Of a stretch of 64,000 bases of DNA, positions 6,900-36,277 are shown one piece after another. Position 1 is the first letter of the stretch; every line of letters begins with the position of its first letter. The stretch is from assembly GCA_025454795.1 (NCBI GenBank), contig JALONT010000001.1:1-64000 (forward strand), written 5' to 3'. Source of the stretch: Bacteroidales bacterium. Its GTDB lineage: Bacteria; Bacteroidota; Bacteroidia; Bacteroidales; VadinHA17. The position numbers and the translations under genes were made by a program. The notes below the pieces were generated by a model, which ran no database searches, had not been told where the DNA came from, and saw only the letters and a list, made by a program, of their open reading frames with translations.

Positions 6900-8723
6900 T
6901 TATCTGAGTGGTGTTGTGCGCGGTGTTGTGCCTGATGATGTGCCTGATGTTTTACCGGTAATCCTGATATTCTTTACATTCTGGTCACTTATGTCCCAAT
7001 CCTGATCAATTTCCCAGTTCGCTTTTACTTCTATCTCGCGCGGGAAAAAAGAAACCGGTTCCGGTTGCCTTCCTTTTTCATAATCCCCGGTTGTCCACTT
7101 TCCATCAATGTTTAAGTCATAGATTACCCTTATTTTATATTTCCCGGGGTCAAGAAATGTGAAATCAGCTTTGCCGTCCTGATCCATTTGTTTTTCCCTC
7201 ACCACTTTTTCGTCGCTGGAAAGAAGCTGAATTATCCGGTCACCCTGGTAGTTTTTAATATTGATGGTCAGCTTGCCAAATGTGTCATTTGCTCTTATTG
7301 AAAATTTGACTCCCGTTGAATCAGCCTGCTCACCATAAACATTGCCAAATGCAGCTGAGTCAGCCACATAAAGATAATTCTTTCCCTGTACCAGCATTAC
7401 ATCCATTGTCATTTTACAGGAGTTAGTGCTGTCCTGGTTCAGTCTGAACGGGATAGCTTTCTTTTCAGTACCTGTGAGTTCATATATCCTGATCAGCGAG
7501 GTATCGGGGTCCCTGAAGGGTGTCAGTGATGTTAAAATAATTTTTTGTCCGGGTCTGAGAGAGCTGCCTGAAAAACTTGTCTTTACAGAATATGGGACCG
7601 GTTTGGTTTTGCCCCTGGTTGAACGTGGCATCAGAAACCGCATCAGGATAGTATCTTCCTTTTTAACAATATTGCCGGTAGTATCTGTAAACGGATAACG
7701 CACCAGTGTGTTGATCTGCTGCCGTGAATATAACGAACTGTCAGAGAGCCATATCCTGAGTGTATCGTTTCCTTTGCTTCTCTCCAGTAAATATGATTTC
7801 GCATCCGTATCAGGAATTGAAAAGTCAAAGCCCATTGTGTCGGGTGGTAATGAAAGTGTATAAATAAGATTGTAAGGAGTGTTTCTGGCAGAGGAGGTCA
7901 GATAATGCATCTTTTTCTCATGAAGAAAAAGTATCAGCCTGTACTCCCCTTTGAGAACTGTTGTGTCAGTTGTATTTACCTTTTCATTCTGAACTTTTAC
8001 AGTATCTTTTACAACCGGCAGGTAGTTTTTCCCGGGTGAGATTACTATTGAGGTATCCAGAAAAGCAAACTCTTCACCGGGAAGATTGAAATTCTTGCTG
8101 TTATCAGCATCTTTAAGAGCATAAAGCCTGTATGTTCCCGTCTTTAGATTATCAAGCCGGAAATACCCCTTTTTATCCGCTCTTGAGATATACCCGGGAA
8201 TGTGCTTAACAACAGCAGAATCCTCAAGTTTTCTATAAAGGAGGATCAATGTCTCTTCAGGTGGATTGAGATCATATGCCTTATAAACATTGCCGGTTAC
8301 AGAAAGAGAATCAATCACCGGACCGGTGGAAAAAACAAACTGGTAATTATCAATCTCGTTTCCTTCATTCAGATCTTTAATTGCATCCTGAAAATTAAAT
8401 GTATATGTTGTGCTGTCACTCAGGTCATCTTCATACTCAACCACCAAGCTTTTCCCTTTCAGAGATACCTTCGGCTTTTTTACCATGGGCGGAGAGATCA
8501 TGAATTTTTCATTTATTTTATCCAGCACAACATATTCATCGAATGTTATGGCGAATCTTTTCCCCTTGAAATTTCTGGCACCATTTTCCGGAGTGCTTTT
8601 TACAATTACAGGAGGCTCTTTATCTCTTGGTCCGCCTAAAGGAGAGCTTATTTTCGCGCATCCCTCAATCAGAAAGTATGTCAATATCAGAGTTAATATC
8701 TGCTTAAATATGCTCCGTGCCAT
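6900..8723 (-). CDS. Lipoprotein with N-terminal SbsA-type Ig-like domain
   Basis: 607 residues from the ATG at 8723 (a TTG directly before it is less likely). The signal sequence ends at FLIEGCAK, a plausible lipobox. The next ~100 residues (DKEPPVIVKSTPENG to FVFSTG) match the bacterial Ig-like domain 5 (SbsA-like) found at the start of many Bacteroidota surface proteins. The rest is beta-rich with carboxypeptidase-regulatory-like stretches (GYFRLDNLKTGTYRLYALKD; FLDPGKYKIRVIYD). A Ser/Thr/Gly tail ends the protein. Likely surface- or periplasm-anchored; function unknown. It is the first gene of the amino-sugar operon. Confidence 0.8.
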   Translation of the reverse strand: MARSIFKQILTLILTYFLIEGCAKISSPLGGPRDKEPPVIVKSTPENGARNFKGKRFAITFDEYVVLDKINEKFMISPPMVKKPKVSLKGKSLVVEYEDDLSDSTTYTFNFQDAIKDLNEGNEIDNYQFVFSTGPVIDSLSVTGNVYKAYDLNPPEETLILLYRKLEDSAVVKHIPGYISRADKKGYFRLDNLKTGTYRLYALKDADNSKNFNLPGEEFAFLDTSIVISPGKNYLPVVKDTVKVQNEKVNTTDTTVLKGEYRLILFLHEKKMHYLTSSARNTPYNLIYTLSLPPDTMGFDFSIPDTDAKSYLLERSKGNDTLRIWLSDSSLYSRQQINTLVRYPFTDTTGNIVKKEDTILMRFLMPRSTRGKTKPVPYSVKTSFSGSSLRPGQKIILTSLTPFRDPDTSLIRIYELTGTEKKAIPFRLNQDSTNSCKMTMDVMLVQGKNYLYVADSAAFGNVYGEQADSTGVKFSIRANDTFGKLTINIKNYQGDRIIQLLSSDEKVVREKQMDQDGKADFTFLDPGKYKIRVIYDLNIDGKWTTGDYEKGRQPEPVSFFPREIEVKANWEIDQDWDISDQNVKNIRITGKTSGTSSGTTPRTTPLR

Positions 8724-8841
8724 CAATGCGTCTGTTCTTGTTGTTTACAAACTTACATCATTTTTTATTTAAATTTTTGGTTTAATTGTAAAAGCTGCAA
8801 CGCAATAAAGTGAATTCTCCGCATTAAATAATAATAATTTT

Positions 8842-8849
8842 TAACTTTG
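8842..8849 (+). promoter_or_regulatory. -7 box of the lgt promoter
   Basis: TAACTTTG matches the Bacteroidota -7 consensus TAnnTTTG and ends 23 bases before the lgt ATG. I could not assign a matching -33 TTTG. Confidence 0.55.
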
Positions 8850-8872
8850 ACAATCACATAAACAGGCTGATT

Positions 8873-9679
8873 ATGCATTTACTTATTATTCCATGGGATG
8901 TTAATCCTGAGATATTCAGGGTTGGTTCCTTTGCCGTCCGCTGGTATGGATTATTATTTGCCTCCTCATTTTTCTTTGGGTACATAATTATGAATAAAAT
9001 ATTCAAAAATGAAAACCTTAATGATGTGGTGCTTGACAGGCTTACTATTTATATGGCCGTCGGCGTTATTGCAGGAGCCAGACTCGGACATTGTCTTTTA
9101 TATGAGCCCGGATATTATCTGTCACATCCTCTTGAGATCCTTAAGATCTGGCATGGAGGACTTGCAAGCCATGGAGCAGCAGCTGGCATATTAATTGCTG
9201 TTGGCTTATTTTCACATAAAGAGAAAAAAGGATATTTCTGGACCCTCGATCGCATTGCCATTGTTGTTGCGTTGTCCGGGTTTTTTATCAGAATGGGGAA
9301 TCTGATGAATTCTGAAATATATGGCGTTGAAACAACAGTCCCGTGGGGATTTGTCTTTTTACGCAACGGAGAGACTGCTCCCAAGCATCCTACACAGATA
9401 TATGAAGCGCTTGCCTATTTGTCAATCTTCCTCCTTCTCTTCTGGCTCTACTGGAGAAAAAAAGGCGAACATATAGAGGGAACACTGCTCAGCCTTGCCT
9501 GCATCCTTATTTTTGCAGCACGTTTTTTTATTGAATTCCTGAAAGAGGATCAGGTGGCATTTGAAGCAGGAATGAAATATAATTTAGGCCAGAAATACAG
9601 CATCCCTTTCTTCTTAATAGGATGTATTGGGCTCTATTTAAGCCTCAAAATTAAAAAGAGAGCAGTAATAAAGAGGTGA
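8873..9679 (+). CDS. lgt: Prolipoprotein diacylglyceryl transferase
   Basis: 268 residues, normal for Lgt, with about seven hydrophobic helices. Lgt moves diacylglycerol from phosphatidylglycerol to the lipobox cysteine of prolipoproteins in the inner membrane. Seen: GARLGHCLLYEP, the HGGLASHGAA segment with the essential His, the signature RMGNLMNSEIYG (family pattern RxGNFxNxE), and HPTQIYEAL. A -7 box lies just upstream. It converges with the TetR gene, one base separating the two stops. Confidence 0.95.
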   Translation: MHLLIIPWDVNPEIFRVGSFAVRWYGLLFASSFFFGYIIMNKIFKNENLNDVVLDRLTIYMAVGVIAGARLGHCLLYEPGYYLSHPLEILKIWHGGLASHGAAAGILIAVGLFSHKEKKGYFWTLDRIAIVVALSGFFIRMGNLMNSEIYGVETTVPWGFVFLRNGETAPKHPTQIYEALAYLSIFLLLFWLYWRKKGEHIEGTLLSLACILIFAARFFIEFLKEDQVAFEAGMKYNLGQKYSIPFFLIGCIGLYLSLKIKKRAVIKR

Positions 9680-28632: not shown

Positions 28633-28731
28633 AATCATTTAATACATAAAAATTAAATTCTAAAAGTGCATTATGGAAGAGGCCGTGGCAGACAGCTTAA
28701 CAATTAATTGATAATAAACTTTAAAATTTTT

Positions 28732-29133
28732 ATGGAAATGAAAACAAAACTTTTAATTACAGGAATTGCCTTTATGGCTTTAACAACACTGGTAAGTGCT
28801 CAGAATCAGGGAGTCGGTCAAAGACAACAAAACGCAACAGACAAAGGAGTTGCCTTTGTGGATGCCAATAACAACGGTATTTGCGATAATTATGAAAATC
28901 GTGCATCAAATTCAACTGCCACTGCAGGAAATAATAATTGCAAAGGGGGCGGACAAGGAATGAGACATGGTGAGGGACAAGGTTCTGGGAAACAGGGCAA
29001 GAGACAGGAAAGAGCACAGGGTCAGGGACAGGGAAATTTTAATAACCGAAATTTCGTTGATGCTGATAAAAACGGAATATGTGATTTCCGTGAAACACCT
29101 GCAAAAAAGCAGGACCTTTTAAGGTTTAATTAA
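28732..29133 (+). CDS. Secreted EF-hand-like protein with Q/G-rich linker
   Basis: 133 residues from the ATG at 28732. Signal peptide ends TLVSAQ. Two nearly identical calcium-loop motifs, FVDANNNGICDNYEN (~44) and FVDADKNGICDFRET (~114), follow the 12-residue EF-hand pattern DxNxNGxxDxxE. Between them is a Gly/Gln/Arg-rich linker (GKQGKRQERAQGQGQGN). Probably a small extracellular calcium-binding protein. It faces the QT-rich gene across a shared bidirectional terminator. No known name. Confidence 0.7.
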   Translation: MEMKTKLLITGIAFMALTTLVSAQNQGVGQRQQNATDKGVAFVDANNNGICDNYENRASNSTATAGNNNCKGGGQGMRHGEGQGSGKQGKRQERAQGQGQGNFNNRNFVDADKNGICDFRETPAKKQDLLRFN

Positions 29134-29192: not shown

Positions 29193-29606
29193 TTATTTTC
29201 TGCCAGCACCTGCGCTTTTTGAGACTTTTGCTGCATTGCGCTGTGGAGTAGCTGAGCGTGCCCCTTTGTTCTTTGTGGTAGTTTTTTCCTGCTCAGTAAA
29301 CTGTTCCCTATTCTGGACAGCTTCCTTTTTTTTCATCTCTTTCTGTTGTTTTTGCTGAGCTTTTCTTTCTTCATTCCTGGCCTGTTTCTGAGCCTTCGTC
29401 ATCTGACCCTGGTTTTTATACTGAGTCTGATCCTGAGTACTCGTCTGAGCCTGGGTCATTTCTCCTGTCCGGGTTTGGGTTTGAGTTCCGGTCTGTGCCT
29501 TCTCTCTGGTCTGTACTTTGGCTTGTGGAGCCTCCTGTGCTGAAATGGCTGCACTAATAAAAAGTGCCATAATTGCCATAATAATCTGTTTTTTCATAAT
29601 CTTCAT
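29193..29606 (-). CDS. Secreted QT/K-rich low-complexity protein
   Basis: 137 residues with a signal peptide (~1-23, ends AISAQ) and a mature part made almost wholly of Gln, Thr, Lys, Arg and Glu, e.g. TGTQTQTRTGEMTQAQTSTQ and KQARNEERKAQQKQQKEMKK. No domain is recognised; it should be disordered and positively charged near the end. It lies downstream of two beta-barrel genes and the LTxxQ/QN-rich gene on the same strand and shares their unusual composition. Confidence 0.65.
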   Translation of the reverse strand: MKIMKKQIIMAIMALFISAAISAQEAPQAKVQTREKAQTGTQTQTRTGEMTQAQTSTQDQTQYKNQGQMTKAQKQARNEERKAQQKQQKEMKKKEAVQNREQFTEQEKTTTKNKGARSATPQRNAAKVSKSAGAGRK

Positions 29607-29659: not shown

Positions 29660-30562
29660 TTAAAAAATTCTGTAACTAATGTTAAGAAACAATGTAAAAC
29701 CTTTCGGACTTTGTATGCCGGTATCAGAATATGTTGGTAGTATATATCCTGGTTCTGCTTCAACTGTCAGTTTACCTGTATTGAGCGCAACCGGTACACC
29801 GAGATCAACCTCCATAAGACTAAAAAATGTTGAAGTTGTTCCCGGATTACTTCCTCCTCCTCCTCCACCTGAAGGTTTTCCGGTCTTGAACGGAGGTGAT
29901 ACTCCTATTGAAGTACCATCAGCAGTAATAGTTTTGGTAAGAGTTCCAAATAACAGGGTTACATAAGGATCAAATGAAAAATAAACTTTACCATTCATAA
30001 TTTTCGGAGTCGTAAAATATTTTGAATTCTTAAGCTGGAAATAAGCGTTGCTCGCTTCAGAAAAAATCCCGCTAACTGAAATATTTGTATAAAGGATTTC
30101 CCAGTCAAAACCTGCCGCCAGGCTGCCATAGAAGAAATTGTTGAATAAGGTATCTGTAAGCTTGCTGTTGACCTGGTAACTCGAAGCACTAAATGAAATA
30201 TCAAGCCATGAATTAAAATCATGGCTATAGCTCAAGGAAATAGTTGAAAAAACAAGGAAAGGATCAAAAGCGGTAAGGTGATTTATTGAGACAGAAGCGA
30301 ATAGCTCGTTTTTGTATCCATAGGTTATGAATCCGGAGTAAACAGGCTTATCCTGCGAGATATTTGAACCCATATAAATCATATTATTGCTGTACCCGAT
30401 TCCTGTAAAAAGTGAATGGGGAGATTCATTTTCCTGGAGTGCAGTAACATCTGATTTCCTGGTAACTACCGTTGAATTCTCCTGCGCTGAAGCATTAACA
30501 GGTAGCATCACCATCATAATGCTTCCTGCCAGTAAACGGGCGTATAACCTGATTTTTTTCAT
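29660..30562 (-). CDS. Beta-barrel-like outer-membrane protein 1
   Basis: 300 residues with a signal peptide (~1-27, ends ASAQ) and many amphipathic strands ending in aromatic residues (GFITYGYKNELFASVSIN, ISLSYSHDFNSWLDISFSAS, FTLFLNISYRIF at the C-terminus). A glycine run followed by SNPGTTST (~230) is probably an exposed loop. It resembles the next gene upstream in strand pattern and length and the two are probably paralogues, 27 bases apart. Function unknown. Confidence 0.7.
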   Translation of the reverse strand: MKKIRLYARLLAGSIMMVMLPVNASAQENSTVVTRKSDVTALQENESPHSLFTGIGYSNNMIYMGSNISQDKPVYSGFITYGYKNELFASVSINHLTAFDPFLVFSTISLSYSHDFNSWLDISFSASSYQVNSKLTDTLFNNFFYGSLAAGFDWEILYTNISVSGIFSEASNAYFQLKNSKYFTTPKIMNGKVYFSFDPYVTLLFGTLTKTITADGTSIGVSPPFKTGKPSGGGGGGSNPGTTSTFFSLMEVDLGVPVALNTGKLTVEAEPGYILPTYSDTGIQSPKGFTLFLNISYRIF

Positions 30563-30588: not shown

Positions 30589-31452
30589 TTATTTCAATGA
30601 CAGCAGGTAACCGACAGAGAATGAAAAAAATGAACTTGCCGGATATTTGTAATTATTATCCTGTGTCATGGGAATATTCATCGAATAGCCAAATTCGAAG
30701 CTAAAATTTCCGGCATAAATACAAACCGGCAGATATGCCTGTGTATTTAACAGTCCATATTTCTCAGTAACAGGAGAAGGCGAACTCAATGGATCAATTA
30801 TGCTTCCATTATAATATTCAATAGTTTCAGATCCTATGAAGAGAGAAAGTTCCGGCACTAACCGGATCTCCCCATATCTTCCAAACCGTATTAGCGTGAT
30901 ATTTGAATAAATAGCAGGTGAAAGGTTCATACTAAATTCCTTTCCGAACAAAGCATTTAACGAAAGATATCCTCCGATCCAGTTGTTCCTTATTGATAGT
31001 CCTGCTCCCAGATTATTTTTAGAAATATTTTCTGTTGAAGAGTCTGCAGAATTGAGCAAATATCTGCTGTATGAAGCCCTGAAACTCAGGTTTTTCTTTT
31101 GATTAAGAGGCTTCCTTATCCCTGCAGTGGCAACAGTGAAATTATAGCCCGGATCGAGATCACTGTACCATGACCCTGATACCCCTAAATATAAACCGCC
31201 GGAATGGAACACGTAAAGATTCCCATTTATTGAATACATATTTTCTCCCAATTCCCTTCCTGCATAAAATGTTTTACTGTCGCAGTTGATTCCGCTATAT
31301 ATATAACTGCTGGCTGAGGGTTGATCGAACAAGTGGTTTAAAGCTTTGTCATTCTCAAACACATCTAAAAGCAAGGAGTCAATCCTGTTGTATTGCGACA
31401 ATGCCGGCAATACCCAGAGCAACAACATTATCAGAATGGCAATCCGTTTCAT
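30589..31452 (-). CDS. Beta-barrel-like outer-membrane protein 2
   Basis: 287 residues with a signal peptide (~1-19) and repeated beta strands (GLYLGVSGSWYSDLDPGYNF, LSFRASYSRYLLNS, FSFEFGYSMNIPM, FFSFSVGYLLSLK at the end). No known family is certain. It lies about 100 bases downstream of the LTxxQ/QN-rich gene and 27 bases before its likely paralogue, and could belong to the same ECF-sigma-controlled transcript. Confidence 0.7.
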   Translation of the reverse strand: MKRIAILIMLLLWVLPALSQYNRIDSLLLDVFENDKALNHLFDQPSASSYIYSGINCDSKTFYAGRELGENMYSINGNLYVFHSGGLYLGVSGSWYSDLDPGYNFTVATAGIRKPLNQKKNLSFRASYSRYLLNSADSSTENISKNNLGAGLSIRNNWIGGYLSLNALFGKEFSMNLSPAIYSNITLIRFGRYGEIRLVPELSLFIGSETIEYYNGSIIDPLSSPSPVTEKYGLLNTQAYLPVCIYAGNFSFEFGYSMNIPMTQDNNYKYPASSFFSFSVGYLLSLK

Positions 31453-31550
31453 TTATTTCGTAATATTATTTGTATTTTTTTTAAGATTGAAAAAGGAGTC
31501 CGGAAGCAGCAGTATGTCTACCCGGATCTCCTTAATTTCTTAAGAATGTA

Positions 31551-32141
31551 CTATAGCTGACCGTTGCCGTTTTTGCCTGCTGAATTACGGGTATTTGTAC
31601 CATTTTGAATCATTTGCCTGCTTTGCTCTCCGGAAGCATTGTCGTTCCGGAATTCATTCCTTTGCTGCTGGCGCAACTCCTGGTTTTCCTGAAGCATATT
31701 GCACTGTTGTTCTGTGAGTGAATTCATAAAAGTTTTACGCTTTTGATTCTGTTTCATCTCTTTGTTTCCCAGGATTGCTATTTGTTCCTCGGTCAGTGAA
31801 TTGCGGAATTTTTCACGGTTCTGCTGCTTCTCCTGGCTCTGTCCCATTAATTGGTTCTGAATCTGTAATTGGCTCTGGTTCTTTACCTGATTCTGGTTCT
31901 TCACCTGGTTTTGATTCTTTACCTGATTCTGGTTCATAACCTGGTTTTGATTCTTTACCTGATTCTGGTTCATAACCTGATTCTGGTTCATAACCTGATT
32001 CTGCACCTGGTTCTCTACCTGGTCTTTTAACTGGCTCTGTTCCCTGGTTCTGGTACGATTTTGTTCCTGTCCAAAGGAGACTCCTGCCAGAAGGAAGAGT
32101 GCCATGCTTGTTGCTGAAATTTTTAATGCTAAGTTTCTCAT
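31551..32141 (-). CDS. Secreted LTxxQ-motif protein with QN-hexad repeats
   Basis: 196 residues. Signal peptide (~1-24). Residues ~34-100 are a tandem of hexads of type NQNQVM/NQNQVK, encoded by 18-base repeats. After it come two copies of an LTxxQ unit, NSLTEEQIAIL (~114) and NSLTEQQCNML (~142), the motif of the Spy/CpxP/ZraP family of periplasmic chaperone or sensor proteins. The family assignment rests on that motif alone. An ECF-type promoter-like element shared with the sigma gene lies 75 bases upstream. The repeat number is likely to vary between strains. Confidence 0.7.
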   Translation of the reverse strand: MRNLALKISATSMALFLLAGVSFGQEQNRTRTREQSQLKDQVENQVQNQVMNQNQVMNQNQVKNQNQVMNQNQVKNQNQVKNQNQVKNQSQLQIQNQLMGQSQEKQQNREKFRNSLTEEQIAILGNKEMKQNQKRKTFMNSLTEQQCNMLQENQELRQQQRNEFRNDNASGEQSRQMIQNGTNTRNSAGKNGNGQL

Positions 32142-32215
32142 TTCTATACAATTTAATTATACATTTCAGAAGCTTATTCAATATTATCATCTTGTTTTAC
32201 AGCTTCTTTGCAATT

Positions 32216-32247
32216 AAACCGCATGAAATTCCTTTTACCCTACTTTT
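32216..32247 (-). promoter_or_regulatory. Candidate ECF-sigma promoter of the LTxxQ gene
   Basis: On the minus strand: AAAAGTAGGGTAA, six bases, TTTCATGCGGTTT. The same two blocks with the same spacing occur 60 bases before the sigma gene (TTTCATTCGGTTT there). One mismatch in 26 block positions. Confidence 0.65.
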
Positions 32248-32329
32248 TTAGGATTATATTTTAGAAATTATCCGGAAAAGGACACCTTCAAAAGGCGATA
32301 AATGTGTTTAAAACCTTCCAAACGAGGTA

Positions 32330-34852
32330 TTAAAAGTATATGTTCAGGAAAATTGTAGGCGTAAGAGGGACAGCTTCAGCATATAAGCTTATCGTTGTAG
32401 TTTCATTAGTCGGGATTCTGGTATAATTCGAGTAGCGTATATTCTCCCTGTTTAGTACATTTAATACAGAAATTCCTGCATCAAGGTGGACTCTCCGTTT
32501 TGAAAGTTTATAGATCAGGGCAGCATCAAGCCGGCTGTATGGCTGCATATAGTCAATCAGGGCAGGCAGCTGATCAGGGTCAGGAAATCCAGAACCAAAG
32601 ACATAATTGACCGAAAGATGAAGGGATTTATACCTTGTAAGTCCTGCAAATTTCAGCTCATGCCTTTGATCGTGCATTGCCGGAATATATTCCATGGTCG
32701 GGAAATAAGGAAAATATTCCAGCGTTTTGCTCAGGGTATAGGAAATCCAGATTGTCTGATCCTTAAAATCTTTTTTGATGAAAATGTCCAATCCTTTTGT
32801 CTTGCTGTCACCTTCATACAGGTCTGTTCCGCTGTCTGTTTCCAGGAAACGGGTAATGGCACCTGTTCTTTTCAGGTAACCTTCAGCACTGAAAATAAAT
32901 CCTTTTTTATTATATGTTAATCCACATGTCAGACTTTTAGAGCTCAGCACAGATACTTCGTTGTTGTCACAAACAGACCATGCCAGCCGATAATCTCCCA
33001 AAGTTTCAATTATCATGTTCTTTGCTACAAACTGGTTGTATGTACCTGCTGCCGAATTTATTTTCAGATAATCATTTATCCTGTACAGCAGTGAAAGACG
33101 GGGTTGAAAAAATATTTTACCTGCAGTTGAATGGTAATCCAGCCTTATTCCCGGTTTTATAGTGATCTTTTTATGCAGGTTGATATTGTCCTGAAGGTAA
33201 AAATATGGAAGAGTAAGATTTATTTTTTCATCCTTAATGGAATACAGCATACTTGTTTCGTCCCTGTCTGTAAAATAATTGAGTACCCCGACGCCGGCAT
33301 CGATCTGGTGTTTCTCCGATATGCTGAATGTATTTTCTATCCTTCCGTTTACCTCGTTTATCGACAAATCATAAATATTATGGATGCTTGTGGACACCTG
33401 GGGCCCTGATGTTCGTATTATATCTTCATTATGAGTCCGGGCAGTTTGCAATGATGAAAAACTTGCAATGAAGTTGCTTGTATGTTTATCTTTCCAGCGA
33501 AGGCCGTAAAATGCTGAACCACCAAGCTGGTTATTTTTTTCATTGTGATCCAGCGTAATAGTCTTCTGGAAGGTTTCCTGGTCAAAAGCATATGAAAAAT
33601 TATCCCTGCCACCATAAAGACTTATATAATAGTTGGTATTGGTGCTACTCCCTGAATATTTCAAATTTATATCACGGAATTTGTAATCGGGTGTAAGATA
33701 ATAGTCTGCCTGGGAATTTTGCCTGCCTCTCCCATATGAAGAAGTAGAAAACATTACAGGATTATAAAGATCATAGTAGGTTTGCCGGTAAGCAAGTAAC
33801 AATGCCGACTTTTTTTGGAAAGGAATACTTGCCATTCCGTTGACTGTCATATTATTTATGCAAAACTGCGCTGATGGTTCCAGCCTGTTTCCATCCACAC
33901 CCGTAATATCCACTATCCCTCCTACTCTTTCGCCATATTCAGCACCAAATCCGCCTTTTAATACTTTAATGTCTTTTGCCATAAAAGGATTTATTGCGCT
34001 GATGTTGTCATTGAAATTCTTCATCCCATAAAGTGTAAACCCATCAAAAATAATCTGACTATGTCCTTCATAGCTTCCCCATATAATAAGGTCAGCGGAT
34101 TGCTCGCCTGCTGCAAGTATCCCGGGCTGTAGCCGCAGCAGGTTAAATATCGAGTTGTCGCCATTACCAGGAAGGTAATAGGCTATCTTATGATTCAGTC
34201 TGATTATCCCTGGTGAGCTTCCTGCCTGAATTGTCTGTGCTACTACTGCTCCTTTGACAACAACCTCCTGCAATGCTATTACCGATGGCATAAGATTAAA
34301 ATTATTATTTGTCCCGGCATTTACGATTGTATCCAGAATATAATAACCTATATATGATATTTTGACATTAAAAATACTGTCAGTTGTTGATGTTAATGAA
34401 AAATTACCTTTTGCATCCGAACCAAGCACAGTATTATTGATCTGTATTCCCGAAAAAGGGAGAGTTTCCTGATTGGTTTTGTCAGTGATACGGCCAGAAA
34501 TGATATACTTCTTCGGTTTTTCCTTAATCCTGAACGGATAAATAATATATACTCCATTGTTGATTTCATGCCTCAGGGGTAATCCCAATAAAAGAAAGTC
34601 AATTGCTTTTTCTGCAGATGCGAAGGCTGTATCACAGGAAAGCTTAAATGATGATAAATGTGAGTCATCGAACGACAGCATCAATCCGTATTCAGATCTT
34701 AAATTAATCAGGAGTTGATTCAATGGTTCTTCTGTACATTTTATACTGATCTCCTGTGAGTAGGAGAAGCAAAACAGGTACAGTAAATACGAAGAAATAA
34801 TAAGCTTTTTAAGTGATAAGCTTTTATTTATTTCTCGTGATAAGGTATTCAT
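32330..34852 (-). CDS. TonB-dependent receptor with N-terminal STN signalling domain
   Basis: 840 residues. Signal peptide (~1-33); STN (secretin/TonB short) domain (~38-105, EPLNQLLINLRSEYGLML to NGVYIIYP), which in FecA-type receptors passes a signal to the anti-sigma factor; carboxypeptidase-like domain (~115-190); plug (~195-310, LLRLQPGILAAGEQSADLII); barrel to the C-terminus (ending TPTIFLNIYF). The start overlaps the end of the fecR-like gene by 29 bases. The ligand is unknown. Together with FecR and the ECF sigma gene it forms a surface-signalling trio. Confidence 0.88.
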   Translation of the reverse strand: MNTLSREINKSLSLKKLIISSYLLYLFCFSYSQEISIKCTEEPLNQLLINLRSEYGLMLSFDDSHLSSFKLSCDTAFASAEKAIDFLLLGLPLRHEINNGVYIIYPFRIKEKPKKYIISGRITDKTNQETLPFSGIQINNTVLGSDAKGNFSLTSTTDSIFNVKISYIGYYILDTIVNAGTNNNFNLMPSVIALQEVVVKGAVVAQTIQAGSSPGIIRLNHKIAYYLPGNGDNSIFNLLRLQPGILAAGEQSADLIIWGSYEGHSQIIFDGFTLYGMKNFNDNISAINPFMAKDIKVLKGGFGAEYGERVGGIVDITGVDGNRLEPSAQFCINNMTVNGMASIPFQKKSALLLAYRQTYYDLYNPVMFSTSSYGRGRQNSQADYYLTPDYKFRDINLKYSGSSTNTNYYISLYGGRDNFSYAFDQETFQKTITLDHNEKNNQLGGSAFYGLRWKDKHTSNFIASFSSLQTARTHNEDIIRTSGPQVSTSIHNIYDLSINEVNGRIENTFSISEKHQIDAGVGVLNYFTDRDETSMLYSIKDEKINLTLPYFYLQDNINLHKKITIKPGIRLDYHSTAGKIFFQPRLSLLYRINDYLKINSAAGTYNQFVAKNMIIETLGDYRLAWSVCDNNEVSVLSSKSLTCGLTYNKKGFIFSAEGYLKRTGAITRFLETDSGTDLYEGDSKTKGLDIFIKKDFKDQTIWISYTLSKTLEYFPYFPTMEYIPAMHDQRHELKFAGLTRYKSLHLSVNYVFGSGFPDPDQLPALIDYMQPYSRLDAALIYKLSKRRVHLDAGISVLNVLNRENIRYSNYTRIPTNETTTISLYAEAVPLTPTIFLNIYF

Positions 34853-35696
34853 TGTCTGCTTTTCGGGTAATTTCCAAATTAAAAGGTCTGCACACCAAAT
34901 TTAGCACATTTTCAACAGCGCTTTCTTTAATAAATGTACCTGTATATATATATTCGAGATCTTCAGGGATATTGATTAGAACTCCGTACTGCCTGCCAAT
35001 CTCTTCAAATACTTTCCTGAGCGATACGGATGTAAAACTAAGTTTATTGTTTAACCATGATAAAGTCTGGTTAGTATCTATATCGGATTGAATAACCAAA
35101 GTACCTTCTGCATTTAATGCTGTTTGCTGACCGGGATTCAGGATAACATCCTGATTCCCGGATATTCCTGAAACTTTTACCTTGCCTGAAATACAGGTCA
35201 CCTGGTAGTCGCTATTTCTGGAGTATATGTTAAAGGTGGTCCCAAGTACAATAGTTTTTCCTTTACCGGAAATAACCTCGAACTGTTTTCCTTTCATAAC
35301 ATCAAAATAAGCTTCTCCTTCAAACTTAACCGTGCGCGTATACTTCCACAAAAGAGGTTTATATGATATTGTTGACTGGGCATTGAGATTTATCCTTGAA
35401 TTATCGGGAAGATAAATTTCAGCGTGTTGTCCCATTGGCACATTTATAGTTTTTGTATAGAACCTGGCAAGAGCTGATATTCCTATCAATAAAGCAATTC
35501 CTGCAGCCATTGCAATCTTCATCCCGGGTCTGAAAAAGATAATTTTCCCGGCAGATGGTACAGTATCTATCTTCTTTTCCAACTCCGTCCATGCCTCTTC
35601 TTTGCTTTTCCCCCAGAGAATATGAGTGTTGGAGATCATGGTCTCCGTTTCCTTCGAAAAATGATTTTGCTCCTTATTTTTCTCTCCTTTTTTCAT
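34824..35696 (-). CDS. FecR-family anti-sigma factor
   Basis: 290 residues. A cytoplasmic N-terminal region (~1-60) is followed by one membrane helix (~68-84, MKIAMAAGIALLIGISALA) and a periplasmic FecR domain (~95-200: HAEIYLPDNSRINLNAQSTI, GEAYFDVMKG, ISGKVKVSG). A C-terminal DUF4974-like STN-related part follows (SFTSVSLRKVFEEIGRQYGV). It would hold the ECF sigma factor until the TonB receptor reports ligand. Four bases after the sigma gene; overlaps the receptor gene by 29 bases. Confidence 0.9.
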   Translation of the reverse strand: MKKGEKNKEQNHFSKETETMISNTHILWGKSKEEAWTELEKKIDTVPSAGKIIFFRPGMKIAMAAGIALLIGISALARFYTKTINVPMGQHAEIYLPDNSRINLNAQSTISYKPLLWKYTRTVKFEGEAYFDVMKGKQFEVISGKGKTIVLGTTFNIYSRNSDYQVTCISGKVKVSGISGNQDVILNPGQQTALNAEGTLVIQSDIDTNQTLSWLNNKLSFTSVSLRKVFEEIGRQYGVLINIPEDLEYIYTGTFIKESAVENVLNLVCRPFNLEITRKADNEYLITRNK

Positions 35697-35700
35697 TTAT

Positions 35701-36186
35701 TTATTCCTCTAATGTTTTTTTAAGAAAAGCCAGCGCTATGCTCATCCTTTTCTCTACTGCCTTAACGCTCAACTGTAACCTGTCGGCAATTTCCTGGTAT
35801 TTCAGCCCGTCCATTCTTGCCATCATAAAAACAGTGCGATGTTTCTCGCCCAATGCAGCCAGAGATTTTGTGTACCTGGAAAACAATTCCGTATAACGCA
35901 GCTGATCTTCGGGAGAAAAATCGACTGAGTCGTTTTTCAAGGCTGCTTTATAATTCAGTTCAAGCTTCTCTCTTCTATATTGGCTTATAAACATGTCGCC
36001 TGCAATTTTATATAATAAACCTGGAGCTGTCTTCATATCAAGATTCATCTGTTTCTCCCAAACTCTTAAAAATACATCCTGGGCGAGATCAGAAGCCTGT
36101 TCCTTTTCTGCACCACGATAAAACAGATAACTGCGTACAGAATCGAAATATGCATCAAACAACAACTTAAATTCTTCTTTCGTCAA
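35701..36186 (-). CDS. ECF-family RNA polymerase sigma factor
   Basis: 161 residues. Region 2 (~10-75, LFDAYFDSVRSYLFYRG, ASDLAQDVFLRVWEK) and region 4 (~105-158, HRTVFMMARMDGLKYQEIAD, LSVKAVEKRMSIALAFLKK) are complete, as in FecI-like ECF sigma factors of Bacteroidota. It is probably released by the FecR-like protein. An element 60 bases upstream matches one before the LTxxQ gene, so it may activate its own operon and that gene. ATG start. Confidence 0.92.
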   Translation of the reverse strand: MTKEEFKLLFDAYFDSVRSYLFYRGAEKEQASDLAQDVFLRVWEKQMNLDMKTAPGLLYKIAGDMFISQYRREKLELNYKAALKNDSVDFSPEDQLRYTELFSRYTKSLAALGEKHRTVFMMARMDGLKYQEIADRLQLSVKAVEKRMSIALAFLKKTLEE

Positions 36187-36245
36187 TTGAAAACAATCGT
36201 GAGTTAATATTTAAATTTATTCTCACATTAAAGTTAACTAAACTC

Positions 36246-36277
36246 AAACCGAATGAAAAGAATATTACCCTACTTTT
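36246..36277 (-). promoter_or_regulatory. Candidate ECF-sigma promoter of the sigma/FecR/receptor operon
   Basis: On the minus strand: AAAAGTAGGGTAA, six bases, TTTCATTCGGTTT; 60 bases before the sigma ATG. The 16-17-base distance between GTAGGG and CGG suits -35/-10 spacing of ECF promoters. Confidence 0.65.

Follow-up and report, generated by a model that had tools for sequence, protein, structure and literature searches.

Two copies of a two-block element are predicted to place a FecI-like sigma operon and a secreted LTxxQ protein gene of Bacteroidota under one ECF sigma factor

The locus raises the question whether two nearly identical upstream elements, one before an ECF sigma gene and one before the gene of a secreted LTxxQ protein, are promoters read by that same sigma factor. 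The window, the whole 64,000-nucleotide stretch of DNA analysed here, contains two 32-base elements of the form AAAAGTAGGGTAA-6-TTTCATkCGGTTT at 36277–36246 (P1) and 32247–32216 (P2), both on the minus strand. Their 26 block bases differ at one position (T/G), and the blocks are separated by a six-base gap in each copy. P1 is located 60 bases before the start codon of the sigma gene and P2 75 bases before that of the LTxxQ gene. The earlier note had described the pair with this strand, spacing, single mismatch and these distances, all of which are confirmed; its ATG as sigma start has to be replaced by a TTG at 36186. ECF promoters consist of a pair of conserved blocks separated by about 16 bases. 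In P1, GTAGGG (36273–36268) is followed after a 16-base gap by CGGT (36251–36248), and P2 shows the same arrangement with GTAGGG at 32243–32238 and CGGT at 32221–32218. Inferred from ECF geometry, transcription from P1 is predicted to start at about 36241 on the minus strand; the predicted start for P2 is at about 32211 on the same strand. We consider it highly probable that the ECF sigma factor of 35701–36186 reads P1 and P2 as its promoters, with P1 driving the operon of sigma factor, regulator and receptor and P2 driving the LTxxQ gene.

The minus-strand order is sigma gene, FecR-type regulator, receptor, P2, LTxxQ gene, two predicted barrels and a QT-rich secreted protein. The FecI-like sigma factor (35701–36186, minus strand) has 161 aa and contains Sigma70_r2 and Sigma70_r4_2. 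In alignments, its nearest orthologs begin at this TTG/GTG-type start too, and its best NCBIfam subfamily is TIGR02985 with 112.3 bits, under the cut-off of 126.4. The FecR-type anti-sigma/sigma regulator (34824–35696, minus strand, 290 aa) carries FecR (PF04773) and FecR_C (PF16344) domains and one membrane helix, read from the sequence rather than predicted by a tool. The TonB-dependent receptor-like protein (32330–34852, minus strand, 840 aa) consists of CarbopepD_reg_2, plug and barrel. For its N-terminal signalling domain, no STN match is found in the window protein; among the receptor orthologs, L118 matches STN at 4e-6, just below cut-off, and L137 matches FecR_C at 1.3e-7. A sigma relative at E <= 1e-36 occurs in 0 of 35 other genomes of the genus, so that the window sigma is patchy, and a 75% identical sigma is found in L118, another Bacteroidales MAG.

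The expectation for a FecI–FecR–FecA system is an ECF sigma factor with regions 2 and 4 next to a FecR-domain regulator, and both are found here. Like E. coli FecI/FecR/FecA, the locus combines a FecI-like ECF sigma factor, a FecR-domain regulator with a C-terminal FecR_C and a TonB-dependent receptor, for which an N-terminal STN/FecR_C-type domain is matched in orthologs. In E. coli, the target of FecI is fecA, and no autoregulation of fecIR takes place (PMC9249621). In contrast to fecIR, the sigma operon here carries the promoter element, and autoregulation is predicted. The receptor gene lies inside the sigma operon, unlike in E. coli Fec, and the predicted second target encodes a secreted Q-rich protein where Fec has a transport operon.

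All genome-wide statements for the host are pattern searches. In its 3.29-Mb genome, the full pattern with up to three mismatches matches the two window sites and nothing else, which answers the genome-wide search for the block pair that had been proposed earlier. A reversed control pattern gives no match in this genome, and shuffled windows give no match to the full pattern at up to three mismatches. The core GTAGGG-N10-TTCATNCGGT occurs genome-wide twice exactly, never with one mismatch and three times with two mismatches; with the gap shortened to 8 as spacing control, the best matches have two mismatches. With a scoring matrix built without the window's own clade, P1 and P2 score 34.0 bits each, and the next best site in the 64 kb reaches 4.2. 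These searches bear on the possibility that the promoter is real and is read by a paralogous ECF sigma factor, or by several with overlapping specificity. A first look gives about 20 sigma-like candidates in the genome. In addition, the upstream region of a sigma paralog with 37% identity (G003, locus L007) contains TAGGGTA, with TGT replacing CGG at unchanged distance. The −35 specificity may thus be shared more widely, and the sequence hints at a wider promoter family with a varying −10 block. Against reading by paralogs, the element tracks this sigma lineage across families and is present in its own genome at the two units of this locus only; we regard this alternative as very unlikely. Reading by the adjacent sigma factor remains the preferred explanation.

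The comparison with relatives was carried out in two samples. The order sample comprises 393 genomes, of which 34 contain a sigma relative at E <= 1e-36. The pattern GTAGGGTA-N14-CGGWWT is found in 19 of these 34 genomes compared to 16 of the 359 without sigma ortholog (Fisher p = 4e-14). This stricter pattern is absent from the other 15 sigma genomes, many of which have relaxed versions or a layout in which a lipoprotein gene comes first. Of the sigma genes inspected in the order sample, about half are preceded directly by the element; for the remaining ones with readable flanks, it is mostly located before a lipoprotein gene that adjoins the sigma gene upstream. The second scan covers 80 sigma loci from public genomes (1.09 Mb), including Labilibaculum, Marinifilum, Sunxiuqinia, Gaoshiqia, Draconibacterium, Carboxylicivirga, Dysgonomonas and Crocinitomix, and has a few genomes in common with the order sample. 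On the sigma strand, GTAGGG-N16-CGG[A/T] occurs at 96 sites in 75 of the 80 loci, and on the opposite strand of these loci it does not occur. Gaps of 8–15 and 17–24 give between 0 and 2 sites per gap on the sigma strand. Among the five element-free loci, three (L177, L184 and L193) are contigs ending near the sigma start, and in L153, which lacks the core pattern, GAGGG replaces TAGGG. Alignment of the sites displays an A-rich stretch, GTAGGGTAa, a weak T-rich zone and kCGGTwt, and T-R-A-A-A is conserved around the predicted transcript start.

The sites are rarely intragenic. Only 3 of the 96 lie within an open reading frame of at least 150 aa, though such frames make up about 81% of the DNA of the 80 loci, and the median distance from site to start codon is 70 bases. 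Twenty-three sites are found within 330 bases before the sigma gene and 49 between 330 and 1500 bases upstream of it, the latter mostly before the lipoprotein gene that precedes sigma. The element marks the sigma operon either directly or via the lipoprotein gene ahead of it. What is found agrees with an ECF promoter: two blocks at one fixed spacing of about 16 bases, upstream of genes, in one orientation, and before the cognate sigma operon across relatives. Sequence comparison directly establishes the element with its fixed spacing, its strand and position, its tie to the sigma gene and its recurrence before LTxxQ orthologs. The complete strand bias, the single spacing, the positions and the matrix scores make autoregulation and strand-specific promoter function well supported predictions. 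The earlier note's ECF-type reading of the blocks and its proposal of an autoregulated sigma operon are both borne out at this level, and the comparison with upstream regions of orthologous sigma genes speaks in their favour.

A bipartite operator could also present two shared blocks at fixed spacing, so that the element might be the binding site of a DNA-binding transcription factor acting on both units instead of a sigma promoter. Apart from the sigma system, no regulator or transcription-factor gene recurs in the 80 loci, while the sigma gene does. The two blocks show no repeat relation to each other, direct or inverted, and their location 60–90 bases before start codons, on a single strand and with a 16-base gap, fits −35 and −10 elements of an ECF promoter. 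We therefore give an operator little credence. The near identity of P1 and P2 could further mean that one upstream segment was duplicated recently, with no regulation in common. Flanks and six-base gap are not alike between the two copies, and relatives at 56–75% sigma identity carry the element independently at both positions, before sigma and before the LTxxQ gene, with diverged spacers. Conservation at both positions in diverged relatives excludes a recent duplication for practical purposes. We conclude that the element is, as judged from these comparisons, the promoter class of this FecI-like sigma factor of Bacteroidota.

Two layouts are found. In the first, one element precedes sigma and a second copy, usually about 2–4 kb downstream, precedes the gene of a secreted protein. 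In the second layout, a single element is located ahead of a lipoprotein gene, and sigma, regulator and receptor come after that gene. The genes behind the second copy of the first layout belong to the Q-rich LTxxQ family (ten relatives among L118–L156, the window and G418), to DUF2202 proteins, to His-rich lipoproteins (L157 group) or to Met-rich lipoproteins (L072, L193). A NigD assignment for the lipoprotein class was rejected, as the match is weak and far under cut-off. Wherever the LTxxQ gene is present in L118–L156, ten loci in all, it is preceded by the element, and so it is in G418, in line with the earlier proposal of the LTxxQ gene as second target. Third promoter copies are observed in L118 at about 14600, before a DUF2202 lipoprotein gene, and at the end of locus L114 (G418), before a secreted protein with T9SS-like C-terminus that is followed by a barrel.

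The predicted P2 target in the window (31551–32141, minus strand) is a secreted Q/N-rich LTxxQ protein of 196 aa with a signal-peptide-like N-terminus and a two-repeat LTxxQ-type helical domain at about residues 106–154. The domain is confidently modelled as four helices with the LTxxQ motifs at turns (mean pLDDT 89). The protein shares with CpxP/Spy a pair of LTxxQ motifs placed at the turns between helices of a domain predicted to be all-helical; unlike CpxP/Spy, it has long Q/N-rich tails. The protein matches no Pfam family, and its domain matches no solved structure by sequence or fold. Membership in the CpxP/Spy (LTXXQ) family was rejected, with neither a Pfam LTXXQ match nor a CpxP/Spy fold match. 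In the order sample, six genomes contain the LTxxQ domain, five of them together with a sigma ortholog. A 125-aa open reading frame with PESG repeats in another frame over the LTxxQ gene (31813–32190, minus strand) is most likely a by-product of Q/N codon repeats.

Directly after the LTxxQ gene, a predicted outer-membrane beta-barrel of 287 aa is encoded at 30589–31452 on the minus strand. Its family accompanies the LTxxQ gene in 11 loci, the window counted. Structure modelling of the protein gives a beta-barrel (mean pLDDT 72), and Foldseek returns generic outer-membrane barrels, FapF, Tsx, NanC and PcoB among them, which are too generic to tell its function. Between the two genes, a terminator-like hairpin with U run is located at 31476–31555 on the minus strand (−22.8 kcal/mol, z −4.2), and in most relatives a strong hairpin occupies this position, with no second element. 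Given this hairpin, P2 transcripts may mostly end there, with read-through to the barrel, and co-control of the 287-aa barrel with the LTxxQ protein is therefore uncertain. The suggestion that the barrels are under sigma control stands in part: the first barrel is conserved beside the LTxxQ gene but is separated from it by the hairpin, and the second, of 300 aa (29660–30562), has no relatives in the 80 loci, as is the case for the QT-rich gene (29193–29606).

A sub-lineage shows a different regulator. In L120, L121, L122 and L125, no receptor gene is found beside sigma, and the layout of G296 is alike. Paludibacter jiangxiensis has a locus of this type. The FecR-type regulators of these four loci (L120:8486–9841, L121:8486–9808, L122:8491–9795, L125:8446–9774) have 435–452 aa compared to the usual approximately 290 aa. 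They keep the FecR domain, lack FecR_C and end with a low-complexity tether and an LTxxQ domain; a profile built from the secreted LTxxQ proteins alone detects these tails at E = 1e-14 to 1e-23. In L131 (Breznakibacter xylanolyticus), the open reading frame after sigma (8497–9084) has the LTxxQ domain without a FecR domain or an obvious membrane helix; it would be a shortened or decayed regulator. Where an LTxxQ locus retains the receptor, its FecR protein is always of the ordinary kind and carries no LTxxQ. In the sigma tree, LTxxQ loci with a receptor are also found beyond the clade that has the fusions, an indication that the receptor-bearing state is the older one. On this tree, which is poorly resolved inside the clade, the LTxxQ fusion takes two changes. 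New here is the loss of receptor gene and FecR_C together with an anti-sigma protein ending in the LTxxQ domain of the target, in four relatives and partly in a fifth.

Since target and fused anti-sigma protein end in the same LTxxQ domain, the comparison points to feedback between target and sensor. The shared domain also suggests that the LTxxQ protein binds the ligand or partner of the sensor and tunes the response. We tentatively propose, as a possibility that falls short of a favoured reading, that the secreted LTxxQ protein is the feedback partner of the sensor and that the sub-lineage swapped receptor and FecR_C for an LTxxQ domain on the regulator. If so, the ligand or envelope state measured by the sigma factor through LTxxQ domains would be the one bound by its own product; this would amount to cell-surface signalling that needs no receptor and has titration built in.

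Very probably, then, one envelope-sensing regulator turns on itself and the LTxxQ protein. In the proposed mechanism, the receptor would pass an envelope signal to the FecR-type regulator, which would release or activate the sigma factor. Polymerase would begin about 8–10 bases past CGG at both P1 and P2. The output would be more of the signalling system, i.e. positive autoregulation, and a burst of LTxxQ protein; in the periplasm or on the surface, this protein would act on whatever the system senses. In this scheme, we infer that the adjacent sigma factor is the reader, where transcription starts, what the signal is and what the LTxxQ protein does. Transcription of its own operon and of the LTxxQ gene by the sigma factor is strongly supported by the comparisons, and tuning of the response by the LTxxQ protein has moderate probability.

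The Dma/Das systems of Bacteroides use dual membrane-spanning anti-sigma proteins with ECF21 sigma factors, Dma having a C-terminal beta-barrel (PMC13088901). The present locus shares with Dma/Das (PMC13088901) the Bacteroidota ECF sigma factor, a regulator with one helix, the principle of an anti-sigma protein that extends into the envelope on a disordered tether, and the output of an envelope protein, and the LTxxQ-fused FecR proteins of L120–L122 and L125 have a long low-complexity tether like that of Dma. Unlike Dma, the regulator here combines a FecR domain with FecR_C or LTxxQ at its C-terminus, and the barrel is a separate gene. Membership in the Dma anti-sigma family was rejected, as no C-terminal outer-membrane barrel is present in the same chain.

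The sharp and transferable element GTAGGGTA-N14-CGGTWT would make regulons readable from sequence in dozens of genera and offers a ready reporter design. To our knowledge, promoter sequences are rarely known for FecI-like sigma factors of Bacteroidota. No description of the motif is found in literature text; logos in figures are not text-searchable, which makes this a weak sign of novelty. The sigma class is predicted to activate itself and one secreted protein whose family varies by lineage, from Q-rich LTxxQ, DUF2202, His-rich and Met-rich proteins to other lipoproteins. The exchange of receptor for LTxxQ on the anti-sigma protein is a direct and testable lead to what such systems sense.

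Two further observations concern individual loci. L157 and L158 (Bacteroides sp. 519 and Parabacteroides sp. PF5-9) do not differ in their sigma protein, their promoter sites or the N-terminus of the target, which points to a recent transfer or to mislabelled records. A small secreted protein with VDANNNGICDNYEN repeats is encoded in the window at 28708–29133 on the plus strand without a promoter element; a similar gene in L077 has the element.
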